Source of the DNA: a virus | Direction: 5' to 3' (one strand) | Length of the DNA: 25,180 nucleotides | Virus record (IMG/VR): IMGVR_UViG_3300009168_000103 | Location: 1 to 25,180 of that record | Shown here: piece by piece, positions 4,772 through 22,998 of the stretch | How the letters are laid out: each line of letters opens with the position of its first letter | Numbering within the stretch: the stretch's first letter is position 1 | The notes under the pieces: generated by a model | What the model saw: the letters and a program-made list of their open reading frames with translations, nothing else | Told to the model about the DNA's origin: nothing | The model's database searches: none | Made by a program: the position numbers and the translations under genes

Positions 4772-6682
4772 GTGGAACGCGCGTACGCCGTCCTGGACCT
4801 CAAGCGCGCGGCCGCCGAGTCGCGCACGTTCAGCGGCATCGCCTCGACTCCGACCCCGGACCGATCCGGCGACATCTTCGAACCCCTCGGCGCGACCTTC
4901 ACGAACCCGATCCCGCTGTTGCTGCATCACGACCGCGAACGCCCCGTCGGCCTCGCGACGTTGACCGCGACCCGCGACGGGATTCGGTTCAGCGCGACGA
5001 TCCCGGACGTGCCGAACGCTGGCGCGCTGCGCGACCGCGTCAAGGAAGCGTGCGACCTGATCGACGCCGGTCTCTTGCGGGCCGTGTCCGTCGGCTATCG
5101 CATCCTCGGCGACGGCGTGAAGTACCTCCAGGCCGGCGGCCGACATTTACTCCGCACCGAAATCTGCGAACTCTCGCTGGTCACCGTCCCGGCGAACGCC
5201 GCGACGACGATTCAGGCGATCAAATCGTTCGACGCTCTGCATGTGGCCGCGTCAGGCCGAACCCCGCCCGGCGTCTCGGGCCGTCCGAAAATTGGAACGA
5301 CCATGGGAAAACAAACCACTGCTGAAGCGATTACGGGCTGGGAAAACAAACGCGCCGCGCTCGCCGCGCGCATGTCGGAGCTGATGACGAAAGCGAACGA
5401 GGCCGGCACGACACTCGACGCCGACGCCGCGACCGAACACGACGACCTCGAAGTCCAGGTCAAGGACATCGACGCGCATCTGACCCGGCTGCGCCTGGAA
5501 GAAAAGCGGAACGCGAACGCCGCGCAACCGATCATCCCGGCCCACGGCAACGGCAACGGGAACATCCCGCGCATCCTCTCGATCAAAGCGAACGTACCCG
5601 CCGGGACCTCGTTCGTCCGGACGGCGTGCGCGATCTTGACCTGCAACGGGAACAAGCGCGAAGCGGCCGAGTACGCGAAACGCTGGGACGACTCGACGCC
5701 GGAAGTCGGGCTGTACCTGAAAGCGGCCGTCGCGCCGGGCACGACGACCGATCCAGCCTGGGCGGGCGCGCTGGTGAATCAGGGCATCGCGAACGACTTC
5801 CTCGAGCTGCTGCGCCCCGCGACGATTCTCGGCAAGATCCAAAACCTGCGCGAAGTGCCGTTCAATACGAAAGTGCCGATGCAGACGGCCGGCGGCACCT
5901 ACGGCTGGGTCGGAGAATCGAAGCCGAAGCCGGTCACGAAGCTCGCGTTCAGTTCCGATAGTCTCGGCATCGCGAAAGCGGCCGGCATTATCGTGCTGAC
6001 CGAAGAGCTGGTGCGGCTGTCCAATCCGTCGGCCGAAGCGCTCTGTCGGCGCGATATGGTCGCCGGCATCGCGCAGTTCCTCGACCAGCAGTTCATCGAC
6101 CCCGCCGTCGCGGCGGTCGCGGGCGTCAATCCCGCGTCGATCACGAACGGCGCGCCGACGGCGGCCGCCACGACCAACCCCCTCGCCGACATCATGGCGT
6201 TGATCAACCACTTCGTGACGAACAACATCCCGGTTGACGGGCTCACGTTCATCATGTCGGCGGCCAACGCGCTCGGCTTGTCGTTCCGGACGAACCTCGA
6301 CGGCTCGTCGCAGTTTCCCGGCATCGGCATCAACGGCGGCGAGTACAAGGGCCTGAAGTTCATCACGAGTCAGGCGGCGGGCCAGCTGGTGATCGGCCTC
6401 CAACCGGATCTGATCCTGTATGCGGACGACGGCGGCGTGTCGATTGACGCGTCCCGCGAAGCGTCGTTGCAGATGGATTCGGCGCCGGCCTCGCCGGCGG
6501 ACGCGACGACCGTCATGGTCTCGCTCTGGCAGACGAACAACGTCGGCCTGCGCGCCGAGCGCTTCATCAACTGGAAGCGCGTCAACGCGAACGCCGTCAA
6601 GTACCTCACGGCGACCGCCTGGCCGGCGCCGACGGGTACCGCCGACGCGCCGGAAGGCCTCACGCGCAACGGGAAGCACTAA
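4772..6682 (+). CDS. Fused prohead protease and HK97-fold major capsid protein
   Basis: A single 636-residue frame carries both the maturation protease and the capsid subunit. Residues about 1-155 are an S78-family prohead protease: LLLHHDRERPVG holds the catalytic His (52 or 53), AVSVGYR the nucleophile Ser106, and TEICELSLVTVPANA the strand that ends the domain. Residues about 178-250 are helical and charged, like the HK97 delta/scaffold domain. From about 290 to the end is the capsid fold (including TDPAWAGALVNQG, YGWVGESKPKPVTKLAF, IVLTEELV). Translation starts at a GTG with AAGG eight bases upstream. An in-frame ATG at 5303 (residue 178), preceded by GGAACGACC, could also give a separate scaffold-capsid product. 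The protease would release capsid subunits after assembly. Confidence 0.93.
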   Translation: MERAYAVLDLKRAAAESRTFSGIASTPTPDRSGDIFEPLGATFTNPIPLLLHHDRERPVGLATLTATRDGIRFSATIPDVPNAGALRDRVKEACDLIDAGLLRAVSVGYRILGDGVKYLQAGGRHLLRTEICELSLVTVPANAATTIQAIKSFDALHVAASGRTPPGVSGRPKIGTTMGKQTTAEAITGWENKRAALAARMSELMTKANEAGTTLDADAATEHDDLEVQVKDIDAHLTRLRLEEKRNANAAQPIIPAHGNGNGNIPRILSIKANVPAGTSFVRTACAILTCNGNKREAAEYAKRWDDSTPEVGLYLKAAVAPGTTTDPAWAGALVNQGIANDFLELLRPATILGKIQNLREVPFNTKVPMQTAGGTYGWVGESKPKPVTKLAFSSDSLGIAKAAGIIVLTEELVRLSNPSAEALCRRDMVAGIAQFLDQQFIDPAVAAVAGVNPASITNGAPTAAATTNPLADIMALINHFVTNNIPVDGLTFIMSAANALGLSFRTNLDGSSQFPGIGINGGEYKGLKFITSQAAGQLVIGLQPDLILYADDGGVSIDASREASLQMDSAPASPADATTVMVSLWQTNNVGLRAERFINWKRVNANAVKYLTATAWPAPTGTADAPEGLTRNGKH

Positions 6683-6688
6683 ACGCCG

Positions 6689-8074
6689 ATGCGGCTCTTC
6701 GGATACGACATCACACGACGACGCACGCCGGCGACGAGTCTGTCGCCGGCGGCGTCGTCTGGTGGGTGGTTCCCGATCATCCGCGAACCCTACACCGGCG
6801 CCTGGCAAAAGAACGACGAGATCACCGCGCCGACGGCACTCTCGTACTTCGCGGTCTATGCGTGCGTCACGCTGATCGCGACCGACATCGGCAAGCTGCG
6901 GTTGCGCCTGGTTCGCCAGGACGACGCCGGCATCTGGACCGAAACCGAAAACTCCGCCTATTCGCCGGTCCTCCGGAAGCCGAACCGGTACCAGACGATC
7001 CACAAGTTCGTCGAGCAGTGGATCACGTCGAAGCTGAAAGCCGGGAACGCCTACGCCCTCAAGCAACGCGACGGCCGGGGCGTCGTCACCGCGCTCTATG
7101 TCCTCGACCCGGCGCGCGTGACGCCGCTCGTCGCGCCCGACGGCGCCGTCTACTACCAGCTGAACCGCGACGAGCTGACCGGCGTCCCGCCCGACCTGGA
7201 GTCGGGCCGCTCCGTCGTCGTGCCGTCGCGCGAAATCATTCACGACCCGATGGTGACGCTCTTCCATCCGCTGATCGGGGTCTCGCCGCTCTATGCGTGC
7301 GGGTTGTCGGCCACCGCTGGCCTGACGATGCAGCAGCAGAGCGAACTATTCTTCCGGAACGGCAGCAACCCGGGCGGCGTGCTGACCGCGCCCGGCCCCA
7401 TCGCGCAAGTCACGGCCGACCGGTTGAAGAGCGACTGGGAAACGAAATTTTCCGGGAACAACGTCGGCAAGGTCGCGATCCTCGGCGACGGTCTGAAGTA
7501 CGAACCGATGGCCGTGACCGCGAACGACGCGCAGCTGATCGACCAATTGAAGTACACCGCGCAAACGATCTGCAGTTGCTTCCACGTCCCGCCGGCGCTC
7601 CTGGACCTCGGCGGCGATGCCGCGAACGTGACGGACCTCGAAGCGCTGTTGCAGAAGTACCACTCGCAGTGCATCCAGTCGCTGTTGACGAACTTCGAAG
7701 CGTCCCTCGACGAAGGCCTGGAGCTCGCGACCCCGTTCGGGACCGAGTTCGACATCGACGATCTGATCTGGATGGTGACCGCGACGAAAACGAAAGCGGC
7801 CGCGGACTCCATCGGCGCCGGCGCGCTGTCGCCGAACGAAGCCCGCCGGAAGTATTTCGGGGTCGGGCCGACCAAAGGCGGCGACTCGCCCATGCTCCAG
7901 CAGCAGAACTATTCCCTCGCGGCCCTGGCCGAGCGCGATGCCGATCAGCCGTTCTCGAAACCCACGCCAGCGCCGGCCGCACTGCCGCCGCCGTCGGCCG
8001 ACGACGACGAGCAGGACGAACAAAAATTCTTCGCATCGCTGACGAAAGCAGTTGAGGACCTTTATGCGGCCTGA
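6689..8074 (+). CDS. Phage portal protein, HK97 family
   Basis: The portal forms the dodecameric ring at one capsid vertex through which DNA enters and leaves. The 461-residue length is typical, and the core is clear: ALSYFAVYACVTLIATDIGKL (about 51-71), SKLKAGNAYAL, LYVLDPARVTPL, and the stretch FFRNGSNPGGVL with FSGNNVGKVAILGDGLKY. The last 50 residues are Pro- and Asp-rich and probably disordered. The gene starts six bases after the capsid stop without a good ribosome-binding site, consistent with coupling. It lies after the capsid gene, whereas most HK97-like phages place the portal between terL and the protease. Confidence 0.95.
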   Translation: MRLFGYDITRRRTPATSLSPAASSGGWFPIIREPYTGAWQKNDEITAPTALSYFAVYACVTLIATDIGKLRLRLVRQDDAGIWTETENSAYSPVLRKPNRYQTIHKFVEQWITSKLKAGNAYALKQRDGRGVVTALYVLDPARVTPLVAPDGAVYYQLNRDELTGVPPDLESGRSVVVPSREIIHDPMVTLFHPLIGVSPLYACGLSATAGLTMQQQSELFFRNGSNPGGVLTAPGPIAQVTADRLKSDWETKFSGNNVGKVAILGDGLKYEPMAVTANDAQLIDQLKYTAQTICSCFHVPPALLDLGGDAANVTDLEALLQKYHSQCIQSLLTNFEASLDEGLELATPFGTEFDIDDLIWMVTATKTKAAADSIGAGALSPNEARRKYFGVGPTKGGDSPMLQQQNYSLAALAERDADQPFSKPTPAPAALPPPSADDDEQDEQKFFASLTKAVEDLYAA

Positions 8075-8513
8075 CGTCCTAGCGGAACATCTGGCGACGA
8101 CGATCAAAGGGTTACTGACCCCGATGTCGGCGCGGGTCGTCGCGCTCGAAACACTCGGCGCCCGCCTGGAGTCCGACCGACCGGTCCTCGCGACCCTGAC
8201 CGCGACCCTCGAAACCCTGACCGCCCGGATCGGCGCCGTGGAAGCGCGGCCGCCGGAACCGGGGCCACCGGGTCCACCAGGTCCGCCAGGGCGTGACGGG
8301 AACGACGGGAAGGCTGGCGTTCCAGGCCTACGGTATTGCGGTGTCTACGTGTCCGGGAAGACCTACGACACGGGCGATCTGGTGACGGCCGGCGGGTCGG
8401 CCTGGTACTGCAACCGGACGACGACAACCGGACCCGGCGACGGCCGGCCCGACTGGACCCTGATGGTCAAACACGGCCGCGACCTCCGCGACCCGGGTCG
8501 GCGGTCCGCATGA
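8064..8513 (+). CDS. Collagen-like phage structural protein with carbohydrate-binding-like C-terminus
   Basis: This 149-residue protein has three parts. Residues about 8-62 are a helical, heptad-like segment that could be a trimeric coiled coil. Residues 67-88 are uninterrupted Gly-X-Y triplets (GPPGPPGPPGRDGNDG and on), a collagen-type triple helix. Residues about 90-140 (YCGVYVSGKTYDTGDLV ... SAWYC ... WTLMVKHGRDLRD) resemble the small chitin/carbohydrate-binding modules found on phage fibres. The ATG at 8064 has GAGG six bases upstream and overlaps the portal stop by 11 bases; a TTG at 8052 is less likely. The stop overlaps the next start (ATGA). A head decoration or fibre role is inferred from the architecture and the neighbours. 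Confidence 0.75.
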   Translation: MRPDVLAEHLATTIKGLLTPMSARVVALETLGARLESDRPVLATLTATLETLTARIGAVEARPPEPGPPGPPGPPGRDGNDGKAGVPGLRYCGVYVSGKTYDTGDLVTAGGSAWYCNRTTTTGPGDGRPDWTLMVKHGRDLRDPGRRSA

Positions 8514-10701: not shown

Positions 10702-10986
10702 ATGGCCGGTCCGCTGCCGTTGCGCAGTGCGCCCGGCGCGCTCGGCCTGCTGCGCTGGTCGTACCAAATCGCGGCGGGCGTGATCGACTTCGTGATCCTG
10801 TACGACCAGACCCGCCGCGAGTGGACCTTGCGCGGCGGGCTGGTCGCCCCGGATGCGTTCAAGCTCACGCGCACGCCGCTGGAGTTCGTTCAGCCGGCGC
10901 CGAAAGGCAGCATCGGCCAGCGCTGGCGCGTCGTCTCGCTCACGGTCCAGGACAATCGGCTATCCGCCACCGTGACCCCGCTCTAG
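10702..10986 (+). CDS. Conserved tail-operon protein of unknown function
   Basis: This 94-residue protein starts three bases after the tail tube stop. It is beta-rich with segments YQIAAGVIDFVILYD, EWTLRGGL and WRVVSLTVQDNRLSATVTPL. No cysteines, membrane segment or catalytic motif are seen. Its fixed position between tube and chaperone genes suggests a tail assembly or minor tail role, which is inference only. Confidence 0.7.
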   Translation: MAGPLPLRSAPGALGLLRWSYQIAAGVIDFVILYDQTRREWTLRGGLVAPDAFKLTRTPLEFVQPAPKGSIGQRWRVVSLTVQDNRLSATVTPL

Positions 10987-10998
10987 GAGAGTGTCCAC

Positions 10999-11430
10999 AT
11001 GAGTCGCTTTGTGAAACCCGACACCGCGCTGCTGACCCTGGCGAACGGTGACACGCTCGTCGTGAAAGTCCGGCTGAACACCGGCGAGACCCGCGCACTG
11101 CGCGCGGCGATCCTCGCCGGCACGGAACAGAGTCACGCGGATCGCGCGGCGTTTCCCGTCGTCCTCGCGTACCTGCTCGACTGGACGATCACCGACGACG
11201 GCCGACCCGTCGTCATCCGGGAACAGCCGGCGGATGTCGTGCGCGCGGTCCTTGACGCCCTGGACTACGACGACTTCATCGAAATCGCGAACGCCATCGG
11301 CGATCACGTCCAGCGCGAGACCGTGCGCCGCGCCGAAGAAAAAAAAACCCCGACTGGCGCGACCGTATCGTCGGCGACCTCGGCATCGCCATCCGTTGCG
11401 GCTGGCGTTACGAGTGGGTCACCGAGTTAG
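10999..11430 (+). CDS. Tail assembly chaperone, unshifted (G-like) product
   Basis: The zero-frame product is 143 residues. Residues 1-115 form a compact alpha/beta domain (NGDTLVVKVRLNTGETRALRA ... AFPVVLAYLLDWTI ... VVRAVLDALDYDDFIEIANAIGDHV). After the Lys-rich run encoded by the A tract, the zero-frame reading becomes Ser/Thr/Ala low complexity (TGATVSSATSASPSVAAG), which looks like unselected frame. AGGAGAG ends about eight bases before the ATG. It lies directly before the tape measure, the universal place of the lambda G / GT pair that chaperones the tape measure and recruits tube subunits. Confidence 0.85.
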   Translation: MSRFVKPDTALLTLANGDTLVVKVRLNTGETRALRAAILAGTEQSHADRAAFPVVLAYLLDWTITDDGRPVVIREQPADVVRAVLDALDYDDFIEIANAIGDHVQRETVRRAEEKKTPTGATVSSATSASPSVAAGVTSGSPS

Positions 11431-11474
11431 ATCCCGATGTCCACGCGATCCTCTGTGAGGAACTGACGAAATAA
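10999..11474 (+). CDS. Tail assembly chaperone, -1 frameshifted (GT-like) product
   Basis: A -1 slip at the A AAA AAA heptamer (11340-11346) moves ribosomes into a frame that stays open to a TAA at 11472-11474, five bases before the tape measure ATG. The added C-terminus has about 42 residues and reads NPDWRDRIVGDLGIAIRCG followed by WRYEWVTELDPDVHAILC and a short acidic end. The DW...GDLG pattern is typical of the extension domain of phage chaperone fusions. The shifted frame is clearly protein-like while the zero frame beyond the slip is low complexity. The fused product would be about 158 residues, made as a minor fraction, and is needed to bind tape measure and tube subunits. Confidence 0.82.
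11340..11346 (+). promoter_or_regulatory. Programmed -1 ribosomal frameshift site
   Basis: The codons GAA GAA AAA AAA ACC at 11335-11349 contain a nine-A run (11339-11347). This includes the canonical A AAA AAA heptamer in the correct phase for a -1 slip by two tRNA-Lys. It lies near the 3' end of the chaperone gene, 42 codons before the -1 frame stop. A GC-rich stretch follows that could form a stimulatory structure, but I did not resolve a clear stem. Confidence 0.8.
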
Positions 11475-13167: not shown

Positions 13168-16100
13168 ATGGCGCCCGTCGTCGCTCCACGGGTCGTGTCG
13201 GCGCCGGCGATCTATCCGACGATCATCTTCATCGCCGGAATTCAGGCGACGACGCTGGTCCGCGTGCGCAATCTAACGATCACCGACGTGCTGAACGAAC
13301 AGCCGAACACGGCCGCGCTGACCGTGAATCTGCTGCCGCATGTGCTGCCGTCGCCGCCGTTCCATCCGCCGTCATTTGATAACGTCGCGTTCAATACGAC
13401 GCCGTCCCCGTCGATTTATCCGGATGTCCGCCGCGGGCAACCCATCGAAATTTATTCCGGCGGCCTGTCGCCCGATCAGCTCGTCTTCGGCGGCGAGATC
13501 GTGTCGGTCCAGCAAATCTATGAAGCCGATGTGCCGAAGCACGTCGCGCTGCACCTGTCGTGCATCGACTACACGCGCGCGCTGAATCGGCGGAAGGTGA
13601 CGAAAAGTTATCTGACGCAATCGGTCACGGCCATCGTCCTCGACCTGATGGCGTCCCGCCTGGCCGATGGGTTTACGACGACCTTCGTCCAGGCGAACTT
13701 GCCGCCCATCGCGATTGATTTCACGTTTGAAGATATGAACCGCGCGCTCACGCGCCTCGCGAATCGGATCGGCGCGTACTGGTACATCGACTATTCGAAA
13801 GCGCTGCATTTTTTCACCGACGAACCCGCCGAGCCGCCGGCGCCGCTCGTGCCTGGCGAACGGTTTGACGACTTGCGGTTCGAGACGGACCTCTCACAAG
13901 TGCGGACGCGTGTCGTCGTCGAAGGGGCGGGGTCCGTCGTCAGCACGCAGATCGCGGTCGGGGAAACGATGATCCCGGTCCGCGACCCGGTGATGTTTCA
14001 ACCCGCCGGCGGGCTCGCGATTATCGGCCAGCAGCGGATCTCCTACACCGGCGTGCAGACCGGCGACCAGGGCGCGCTCGTCGGCCCTGGCGCGCAACCG
14101 GGCGCGGCGCCTGTCGCGACGGCCATCGTCGGCGCCGGCATCGAAGTCGGGACGCACAACTACGCCGTGACCTACGTGTCGGCCTCCGGTGAATCGCTGC
14201 CATCGCCGATGGCGTCCGTGGTCCTCGGCAAAACGGATCCGCCGCCGACCGCGCCGACCCCGAACCCGCCGACGGCCGGCACCGGTCCCGATCCCGGCGT
14301 GCATGAATACGCCGTGTCGTTCGTCACCGCGAACGGCGAGACGACGCCGAGTCCGACGAACAGCATCACGACGACGCAAGTCGGCGGCGTGGCGGCGCCA
14401 GGTGTGACGAACGCCGTGCTGCGGAACGTTGTCGGCAATCTTGCTGGTGGGAGTTCGTTTCGCTATAAGACGACCGTGACGACGGCGGCAGGGGAAACCA
14501 TACCGGGCGCGGTTGGGAATACGATTACGACGCTCCCGCCAACGGCGCCGGGAAATTTCACGACCCAGATGCCGACGACGCTATATCAACCGGGTTCCGG
14601 ATTATTGGAAGGCCAATATCTCTACAACGCCGCGTACGTGAGCGGCGCCTACGAAACCGCATTAGGGTCGCAGCTCAACGTCATCGCGAGTAGTCCGATT
14701 CCACAGGTACCGCCGAATCCGTTGGCGAGCCTGTATGCGATCAACACGGCGACCGGTGGCAGTATCGGGCCTGGGAATTATTACTACGGCATCGCGTACG
14801 TGTACGGCGCCTACGAATCCGCAATCGAAAACGTCTTAGGCCAAAATTACATCACCGTCGGCCCGACCACGAACGCCGTCGCCATGACGCTGAATGGCTT
14901 CAGCGATCCACGGTGTACCGGCATCAAAATCTATCGCACGAAGGCGAACGTCTACACCGCCTATTACCTGGCCGCGACGTTATCGCCGTCGTCGACGTAC
15001 CAGAACTACACCGACACGAAGGCCGACGCGGCCCTCGGCGCCATGCGTCCGGATAACAATCCCATCGGGACCCCGCCGGCGCTGGGTGTCGCGATTAAAT
15101 TTCTCTCGTTCGTGCCGTCGACGAATCCGAAGGTCACCGGCATCCGCCTCTATCGGTGGGTCCCGAATTCGGCGGCCTGGCGCGTCGTGACGACCTTAGC
15201 GAACGCGGAAACCGCATACACCGACGCCGCTGCCGACGGCGCGCTCGGCGCGGCGCGCGCGACGAGCGGTCCCATCGGCACGCCGCCCGGCGACCAGGCG
15301 ACGGTCACGATCCCGACGTCCGGCGATGCGCGCGCCGTCGGCCGCAAGGTGTATCGCAGCGACAACAGCGCGCCGTTTCGGTTCCTGGCGACCATCGCGA
15401 ATAACACGGCCACGCAGTACATCGACAACATCGCGTCGGTCTCGAGCAACGCCGACGCGCCGACAACCGACACGACCGGCGGCGCGCAGACGTGCGTCGT
15501 CGCGTTGACGAATATTCCGCTCGGTCCTGGTGCGGTCACGGCGCGGCGGCTCTATCGCACGCCGGCGAACAGCACGCAACTGCTACTCCTGGCGACGATC
15601 AGCAACAACACCGCGACGACCTACAGCGACAACAAGAACGATTCCACGCTCGGCGCCGCGCCGCCGGCCACGAACACGACCGACACGCGCCAGGTGGCGC
15701 TGTCGAAGATTCCCGTCGGGTCCTCCGGGGTCACCGCGCGCAAGGTCTATCGCACGGCCGCGAACGCGGCGCAGTTGAAACTGCTCGGCACCGTCGCCGA
15801 CAACACGACGACGGGCTTCACCGATAACAATGCCGATGCCACGCTCGGCGCGAACGTCCCGACGGTGGACACGTCGAACTTGCAGCAGCCGCAAGGCCAG
15901 GTGAACGCCGGCGCGACGGTGATGCCGGTCTCGGCGACGGCGGGCTTCGCGGCGGCGGGCGGGTTCGCGGTGGTCGGGAATGGTGAACAGGTGATTCGGT
16001 ACAGCGGGATCACCGCGACGACCCTGACCGGGATTCCGGCCAGCGGTCCCGGATCGTTGACCGCGACCGTCCCGTACAACTCCAGCGTGACGAACGCGCC

Positions 16101-16563
16101 GGCGCTGATCGGCGTGCCGGCCGCTGGACCCGGCGCGATTGCGGCGCGCGGGCTCGTCGATGGGGAAGAAATCCATTTGCTGATCGAACGGAACGACACG
16201 GCCGCCCAAGCCGAGCTCGCGGCCATCGAAGGCGGCGACGGCGTCATCGAGCACTACATTCAGGATCGCCGGCTGTCGGCCGCCGGCGCGACGACGACGG
16301 CCGACGCCGAGCTCGCGTTGTTCAGTCGCGCCGAAGTGCGCGTGACCTACACGACGCGCGACACGAAGACCCGGACCGGGAAGACCATCGTCGCGAACTT
16401 GCCGAGTCCGACGAACCTGGTCGGCGAGTTCCTGATTCAACGCGTCCAGCTCACGCAGTTTGATATTCCCGGCGTGCCGCCGTTGCGCACCGTCGCGGCG
16501 TCCTCGACGCGGTTCAGTTTCGATGATGTTCTTCGGCGGCTGGAATTAGAGGTCTACGCATGA
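13168..16563 (+). CDS. Giant tail hub protein with inserted tandem beta modules
   Basis: This 1131-residue protein has recognisable hub parts at both ends. The N-terminal 260 residues look like a gp27/late-control-D-type baseplate hub (RRGQPIEIYSGG, VFGGEIVSVQQIYEADVP, VALHLSCIDYTRALNRRKV, RIGAYWYIDYSKALHFF). The C-terminal 130 residues (EEIHLLIERND, HYIQDRRLSAAGA, EVRVTYTTRDTKTRTGKTI, LIQRVQLTQFDIPG) complete it. Between them, about residues 310-905 are a string of Ig/fibronectin-like modules. First come copies with YAVTYVSASGESLPSP-type cores, then five with a YR motif at about 200-base spacing. Two related short domains flank the array (VGETMIPVRDPVMF near 264, AGATVMPVSATAGF near 914). 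A role in the tail tip and host binding is likely. The stop overlaps the next start (ATGA). Confidence 0.82.
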   Translation: MAPVVAPRVVSAPAIYPTIIFIAGIQATTLVRVRNLTITDVLNEQPNTAALTVNLLPHVLPSPPFHPPSFDNVAFNTTPSPSIYPDVRRGQPIEIYSGGLSPDQLVFGGEIVSVQQIYEADVPKHVALHLSCIDYTRALNRRKVTKSYLTQSVTAIVLDLMASRLADGFTTTFVQANLPPIAIDFTFEDMNRALTRLANRIGAYWYIDYSKALHFFTDEPAEPPAPLVPGERFDDLRFETDLSQVRTRVVVEGAGSVVSTQIAVGETMIPVRDPVMFQPAGGLAIIGQQRISYTGVQTGDQGALVGPGAQPGAAPVATAIVGAGIEVGTHNYAVTYVSASGESLPSPMASVVLGKTDPPPTAPTPNPPTAGTGPDPGVHEYAVSFVTANGETTPSPTNSITTTQVGGVAAPGVTNAVLRNVVGNLAGGSSFRYKTTVTTAAGETIPGAVGNTITTLPPTAPGNFTTQMPTTLYQPGSGLLEGQYLYNAAYVSGAYETALGSQLNVIASSPIPQVPPNPLASLYAINTATGGSIGPGNYYYGIAYVYGAYESAIENVLGQNYITVGPTTNAVAMTLNGFSDPRCTGIKIYRTKANVYTAYYLAATLSPSSTYQNYTDTKADAALGAMRPDNNPIGTPPALGVAIKFLSFVPSTNPKVTGIRLYRWVPNSAAWRVVTTLANAETAYTDAAADGALGAARATSGPIGTPPGDQATVTIPTSGDARAVGRKVYRSDNSAPFRFLATIANNTATQYIDNIASVSSNADAPTTDTTGGAQTCVVALTNIPLGPGAVTARRLYRTPANSTQLLLLATISNNTATTYSDNKNDSTLGAAPPATNTTDTRQVALSKIPVGSSGVTARKVYRTAANAAQLKLLGTVADNTTTGFTDNNADATLGANVPTVDTSNLQQPQGQVNAGATVMPVSATAGFAAAGGFAVVGNGEQVIRYSGITATTLTGIPASGPGSLTATVPYNSSVTNAPALIGVPAAGPGAIAARGLVDGEEIHLLIERNDTAAQAELAAIEGGDGVIEHYIQDRRLSAAGATTTADAELALFSRAEVRVTYTTRDTKTRTGKTIVANLPSPTNLVGEFLIQRVQLTQFDIPGVPPLRTVAASSTRFSFDDVLRRLELEVYA
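14920..15890 (+). repeat. Five tandem beta-module repeats within the tail hub gene
   Basis: The conserved core G/A-x-K/R-(I/L/V)-Y-R-(T/S/W) starts at 14920, 15139, 15340, 15541 and 15736, a spacing of 219, 201, 201 and 195 bases. Each core is followed by a (L/V)xT(L/I/V)xNxxTxYxD element, and most modules by LGAxxP. The copies are clearly homologous at the protein level but diverged at the DNA level, so this is an old duplication. Upstream (about 14130-14860) lie four more distant modules built around YAVTYVSASGE, YAVSFVTANGE, YKTTVTTAAGE and related cores. Confidence 0.75.
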
Positions 16564-22563: not shown

Positions 22564-22998
22564 ATGAACTCACGCATTGCTCTGATCACCTACATGGACG
22601 GCAGCGGCGGCGCTGGTCCGGACAATTCGCTACCGGGGTCACCGGCGTATCCGTCGCACGGCTTGCCGCCCGGCGCCGTGCAGCTGCCGGTCTTCCCGTT
22701 CGACCCGACGATCCCGGACAACAGTCTGCCGGGATCGCAACCCGGCATCGACAACTCGTTGCCCGGTGGCCGGCCGGAACGTCCCGACAATTCGTTGCCG
22801 CCAGTCCTCGGCGCCGGCCGACCCGATCAGGGCTTGCCGCCGTCGCCAGGGCGTCCGGACAATTCGTTGCCGCCGGCGCCCGCGCGTCCGGTGCAGCCGA
22901 TTGCGCCAGGTGGCCGCTTCGTCGTGAAGTGGCTGGCGTGTCACGGCTTGATCCTCGTCCCGGATAACTCGCTGCCGCCAGCGCCCGAACCGAAGTAG
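22564..22998 (+). CDS. Repeat-rich disordered protein with PDNSLP motifs
   Basis: This 144-residue protein starts with LITYMDGSGG. It then contains six copies of DNSLP(P/G), together with the variants SHGLPP and DQGLPP, embedded in Pro/Gly-rich spacers (for example RPDNSLPPAPARP). Near the end, a short hydrophobic stretch (RFVVKWLACHGLILV) precedes the last copy. AAAGGA lies before the ATG. I recall related proteins with PSHPI/PSQGLP repeats in other phages, of unknown role. A scaffold, interaction array or virion-associated role is possible. A strong hairpin follows the stop. Confidence 0.7.
   Translation: MNSRIALITYMDGSGGAGPDNSLPGSPAYPSHGLPPGAVQLPVFPFDPTIPDNSLPGSQPGIDNSLPGGRPERPDNSLPPVLGAGRPDQGLPPSPGRPDNSLPPAPARPVQPIAPGGRFVVKWLACHGLILVPDNSLPPAPEPK

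Follow-up and report, generated by a model that had tools for sequence, protein, structure and literature searches.

A putative -1 frameshift on a poly-A run in an unnamed, probable tail assembly chaperone family of metagenomic viruses

We analyzed a stretch of DNA of 25,180 nucleotides from an uncultured tailed phage (IMG/VR record IMGVR_UViG_3300009168_000103), further called the window, and observed that the gene preceding its tape measure gene carries a run of nine As followed by a conserved open frame at -1. In our opinion this is very probably a tail assembly chaperone gene in which a -1 ribosomal slip on A_AAA_AAA gives two proteins, the short G and the extended GT. The G/GT reading is well supported: we show a slip site, conservation of the -1 frame, the order of the genes and the predicted folds. 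We infer that the slip is ribosomal, that it gives the two products at a certain ratio and that G and T have roles in tail assembly. Judging from the compared sequences, the change of frame is genuine and conserved. The mechanism is a textbook one and already known; only the sequence family and the motif of its T domain are new.

Reading frames and gene neighbourhood

The preliminary description of this DNA placed a nine-A run with an in-phase A AAA AAA close to the end of the chaperone gene, and a -1 frame open for 42 more codons behind it. We found both in these places (Table 1). The GC content of the window is 65%, and A9 is its only A/T run longer than 6. The zero-frame codons across A9 are GCC GAA GAA AAA AAA ACC. 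G (143 aa) consists of a shared domain of 116 aa, further called N, and of a 27 aa tail past the slip site. This tail has the sequence TPTGATVSSATSASPSVAAGVTSGSPS, and its composition agrees with the low complexity that had been ascribed to the zero frame past the slip. The -1 frame read from 11346 is NPDWRDRIVGDLGIAIRCGWRYEWVTELDPDVHAILCEELTK; it begins with NPDWRDRIVGDLG and ends with EELTK. A -1 slip is predicted to give a product in which ...EEKK is joined to NPDWRDRIVGDLGIAIRCGWRYEWVTELDPDVHAILCEELTK. The -1 frame had also been said to end five bases before the tape measure. Its position was given correctly, and the count was off by one at most, as there are four bases between the T stop and the tape-measure ATG (11479).

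Table 1. Features of the chaperone gene and its neighbours in the window
Feature	Coordinates	Strand	Remarks
Major tail protein, 165 aa	10201..10698	+	phrog_9522, E 1.5e-4; phrog_10528, E 3.9e-4
Small ORF, 94 aa, function unknown, between major tail protein and G	10702..10986	+	no family match
G, zero-frame tail assembly chaperone ORF	10999..11430	+	ATG start, 143 aa
A9 run	11339..11347	+	~0.05 A/T runs of at least 9 expected per window
Slippery heptamer A_AAA_AAA, in-phase, putative -1 tandem slip	11340..11346	+	in-phase A_AAA_AA(A/C/G) in 79/79 clustered loci
T, -1 frame extension	11346..11474	+	42 codons + TAA (11472-11474), conserved motif, predicted three-helix domain
Zero-frame tail, unconserved, Ser/Ala/Thr-rich	11347..11430	+	27 codons + stop
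Tape measure protein, 561 aa	11479..13164	+	phrog_9483 tail length tape measure protein, E 8.7e-16

The gene of the major tail protein was located upstream of G in all relatives (78/78), and the 94 aa ORF in 35 of 78. The tape measure gene was identified downstream of G in 34 relatives, which are those with detectable tape-measure sequence similarity. Elsewhere the window resembles the genome of a temperate siphovirus, with terminase, protease-capsid, portal and integrase.

The capsid gene (4772-6682) is a single ORF matching the profiles of both head maturation protease and major head protein, and it precedes the portal gene rather than coming after it. The ORF at 8052-8513 overlaps the end of the portal gene and contains a short collagen-like stretch (GPPGPPGPPGRDG). 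Past the tape measure, the ORF at 13168-16563 (1131 aa) contains repeats (xxxRKVYRTxxN-like) and matched no family with confidence. The ORF at 22564-22998 (144 aa) is composed largely of repeats around PDNSLPP and has no PHROG match.

Conservation of the slip site and of the -1 frame

We searched viral contigs with the fused protein as a query and obtained 58 relatives, in all of which T lies at -1 with respect to N (58/58). Since this query was itself fused, we ran a second search from aligned N-domain sequences only. The best 80 of 243 relatives were kept, and 79 fetched loci from these were examined. T was in the -1 frame in 78 of these 79 loci, and the sole locus without T is cut by the contig end shortly past the N domain. 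Some loci represent one contig fetched twice. Both sets joined gave 134 loci with complete T, corresponding to 108 distinct GT sequences (window included), and clustering below 80% identity reduced them to 79 loci, again including the window. No phage record in INPHARED was matched by tblastn with the window's protein, and no relative turned up as a host prophage in scans of genome contigs. The family is diverse and so far unnamed, and all its members in this analysis come from viral contigs of metagenomes.

Among the 79 clustered loci the heptamer was A_AAA_AAA in 68, A_AAA_AAC in 8 and A_AAA_AAG in 3. All were in phase, although phase is informative for the shorter runs only, as any nine-A run holds an in-phase heptamer in every phase. 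The runs consisted of 6 (one locus), 7 (8 loci), 8 (28 loci) or 9 As (42 loci). Outside the chaperone gene there were 11 A-runs of at least 7 on the same strand in 390 kb of these loci. The X position of the heptamer, which is the third base of the preceding codon, was A in 79/79 loci, although only 6.7% of third positions in these ORFs are A and the codon that holds it varies (GAA, CAA, AAA, CTA, GCA).

The length of T ranged from 42 to 73 codons in the clustered loci, and the zero-frame tail of relatives comprised between 6 and 50 codons. Stop codons within the first 40 codons were found in 0/79 loci in the T frame, compared with 76/79 in the zero frame and 62/79 in the third frame. Mean pairwise amino-acid identity was 50% for the T frame, 32% for the zero frame and 31% for the unused third frame. 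Since the zero frame hardly differs from the unused one in this respect, we consider its tail to be without conservation of its own. In the four closest sequences, the differences concentrate at third positions of the T frame (3/2/11, 6/4/15, 6/6/22); the random-mutation null for this frame is crude and serves as a guide only.

The preliminary description proposed conservation of the -1 frame in related phages as a check, and the open T frame and its identity among the clustered loci agree with the proposal. It also named a case that would speak against it, namely a related phage with a broken -1 frame and a conserved zero-frame tail. We looked for such a phage in the 134 loci (108 distinct GT) and found none. 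In one relative (L007, 3375-3518) the T domain has lost the CGWRYEW core (CRIMHWTYDDVLTLPAYVYDVL) and has retained the frame and the slip site.

Ribosome, RNA polymerase and other routes to the T frame

The same two proteins would be obtained if RNA polymerase added an A, or dropped two, on A9, and the T frame were then read normally. Bacterial RNA polymerase is known to slip efficiently on nine As (PMC5009743, review). Polymerase slip sites are often eight or longer, and at least eight is given as the typical length (PMC3711429); runs of 8-9 are present in 70 of the 79 clustered loci. However, a homopolymer of at least eight conserved in the whole family, by which transcriptional slippage can be recognised, was not found: in nine of the 79 loci the run is shorter than is usual for polymerase slippage, with 6-7 As (GGAAAAAAACGG, CTAAAAAACGG), while the window has nine. 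The loci with 6-7 As retain an in-phase A_AAA_AAC or A_AAA_AAG heptamer. Moreover, the length of 8-9 largely follows from the coding of Glu/Gln-Lys-Lys-(Asn) around the heptamer. We therefore favour ribosomal slippage, because of the nine loci with 6-7 As and the A fixed at the X position in all 79, and regard slippage by polymerase in its place as unlikely. The A9 of the window could slip also during transcription. It is similarly doubtful, in our estimate, that runs of eight and nine are kept long because both polymerase and ribosome slippage contribute in most members, so that the G:GT ratio would be set at two levels, with the ribosome acting alone in members with six or seven As.

We analyzed the sequences for elements that might stimulate ribosomal slippage. 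Downstream of the site, there was on average no RNA structure beyond background (mean z -0.30; window +0.99). No convincing Shine-Dalgarno-like stimulator was identified either, as the GGA-type words that are in excess at -5/-6 share bases with the slip run. These results fit tailed-phage frameshift sites, some of which are said to work without stimulators and at low efficiency (PMC5009743). In published measurements, cassettes with poly-A runs of 7-11 shifted frame at 10-63%, and tail-chaperone cassettes at 6-7% (PMC3711429).

No slip would be necessary if T had a start codon of its own and were translated as an independent gene, with no fusion to G. In the window the -1 frame is open 5' of the slip site as far as 11256, which leaves room for such a gene. 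However, we found no ATG, GTG or TTG in the T frame of the window, and among the 79 clustered loci a start within 40 codons was present in 11, with a ribosome-binding-like site at one of these. With no common start codon in the window and one such start in 79 loci, T seems to be reached only by a change of frame, and a separate T gene is extremely improbable. Homopolymers are error-prone, and the gene might really be one continuous ORF disrupted by a sequencing or assembly error, but this is scarcely credible, as the same -1 relation is present in 58/58 and 78/79 contigs (the latter from the N-domain search) from many different metagenomes and runs of 6, 7, 8 and 9 As always leave the same frame relation.

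Predicted domains, known systems and proposed function

An AF2 model of N (residues 1-116) had a pLDDT of 91 and a pTM of 0.83, and its predicted fold has two strands followed by helices, the last of which is long. We compared this model with a viral structure library using Foldseek. Four hits had E <0.001, and one of them is named: the tail assembly chaperone of Gordonia phage Teatealatte (E 5e-4, prob 1.00). Most functionally named hits among the top 50 were tail assembly chaperones, with modest TM-scores. The protein-like domain reported earlier in the -1 frame is predicted to be a three-helix domain (pLDDT 94), and it is conserved among relatives, with the motif CGWRYEWVxxLDxDVYxxL. A fold search with T gave no significant hits, for which the domain is too small. 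Neither N nor T had a confident match to any functionally named family in Pfam or PHROG, and no match was found in the PDB by sequence or by fold. Of 75 N-domain members, 48 matched PHROG 9046, an unnamed family of unknown function, with E values of 0.1 or lower, the lowest being 1.4e-6. These matches span most of the N domain; however, the 113 positions of PHROG 9046 stop short of T, and no match to this family was obtained with the protein of the window itself.

The locus is similar to G/GT of phage lambda in its position before the tape measure, in the short product with a -1 frame extension, and in the X_XXY_YYZ-type heptamer; this likeness is one of organisation. It differs in the slip site, which is A_AAA_AAA inside A9 here and G_GGA_AAG in lambda, and in the T extension, which has only about 42 residues. 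The annotated frameshifted tail assembly chaperone pair gp27/gp28 of Bacillus phage 276BB001, a joined CDS, has the same neighbourhood as the gene of the window. Its short product ends with GAAGAAAAAAAGTAA, an A_AAA_AAG site. The two pairs are divergent in sequence overall, and the match concerns the N domain: it was weak in direct comparison (28% identity, E 0.5) and reached 96% probability in a profile comparison, which was one pairwise test. This suggests a weak, distant sequence link between the two. In the haloarchaeal virus HCTV-2 the g-t shift site is A_AAA_AAC (PMC5009743). This virus thus also has a poly-A heptamer for the -1 shift of its tail chaperone; the likeness concerns the shift site, and, unlike for the phage studied here, the host is archaeal. 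The lambda G/GT mechanism is attributed to Xu, Hendrix and Duda 2004, as cited in PMC5009743, and thousands of annotated frameshifted cases were counted in a paper on a prediction tool (PMC10885494).

The G/GT-type pair produced by a -1 frameshift on the A-run, as put forward in the preliminary description, is supported by the gene order, the predicted fold of N and the conservation of the -1 frame. Most ribosomes would stay in the zero frame and produce G, and a minority would slip back one base on A_AAA_AAA at GAA AAA AAA ACC and produce GT (158 aa). By analogy with lambda, G may coat the tape measure protein, the T domain of GT may recruit major tail protein subunits, and the frequency of slipping would set the G:GT ratio.

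In summary, these results suggest a likely function for the unnamed phage protein family that overlaps PHROG 9046. Ordinary gene callers would overlook the frame that holds the T motif, and with it the fused protein, as had been predicted for conventional gene calling. Homologous genes carry A6, A7, A8 and A9 versions of the site, and this natural series could help to tell slippage by the ribosome from slippage in transcription.
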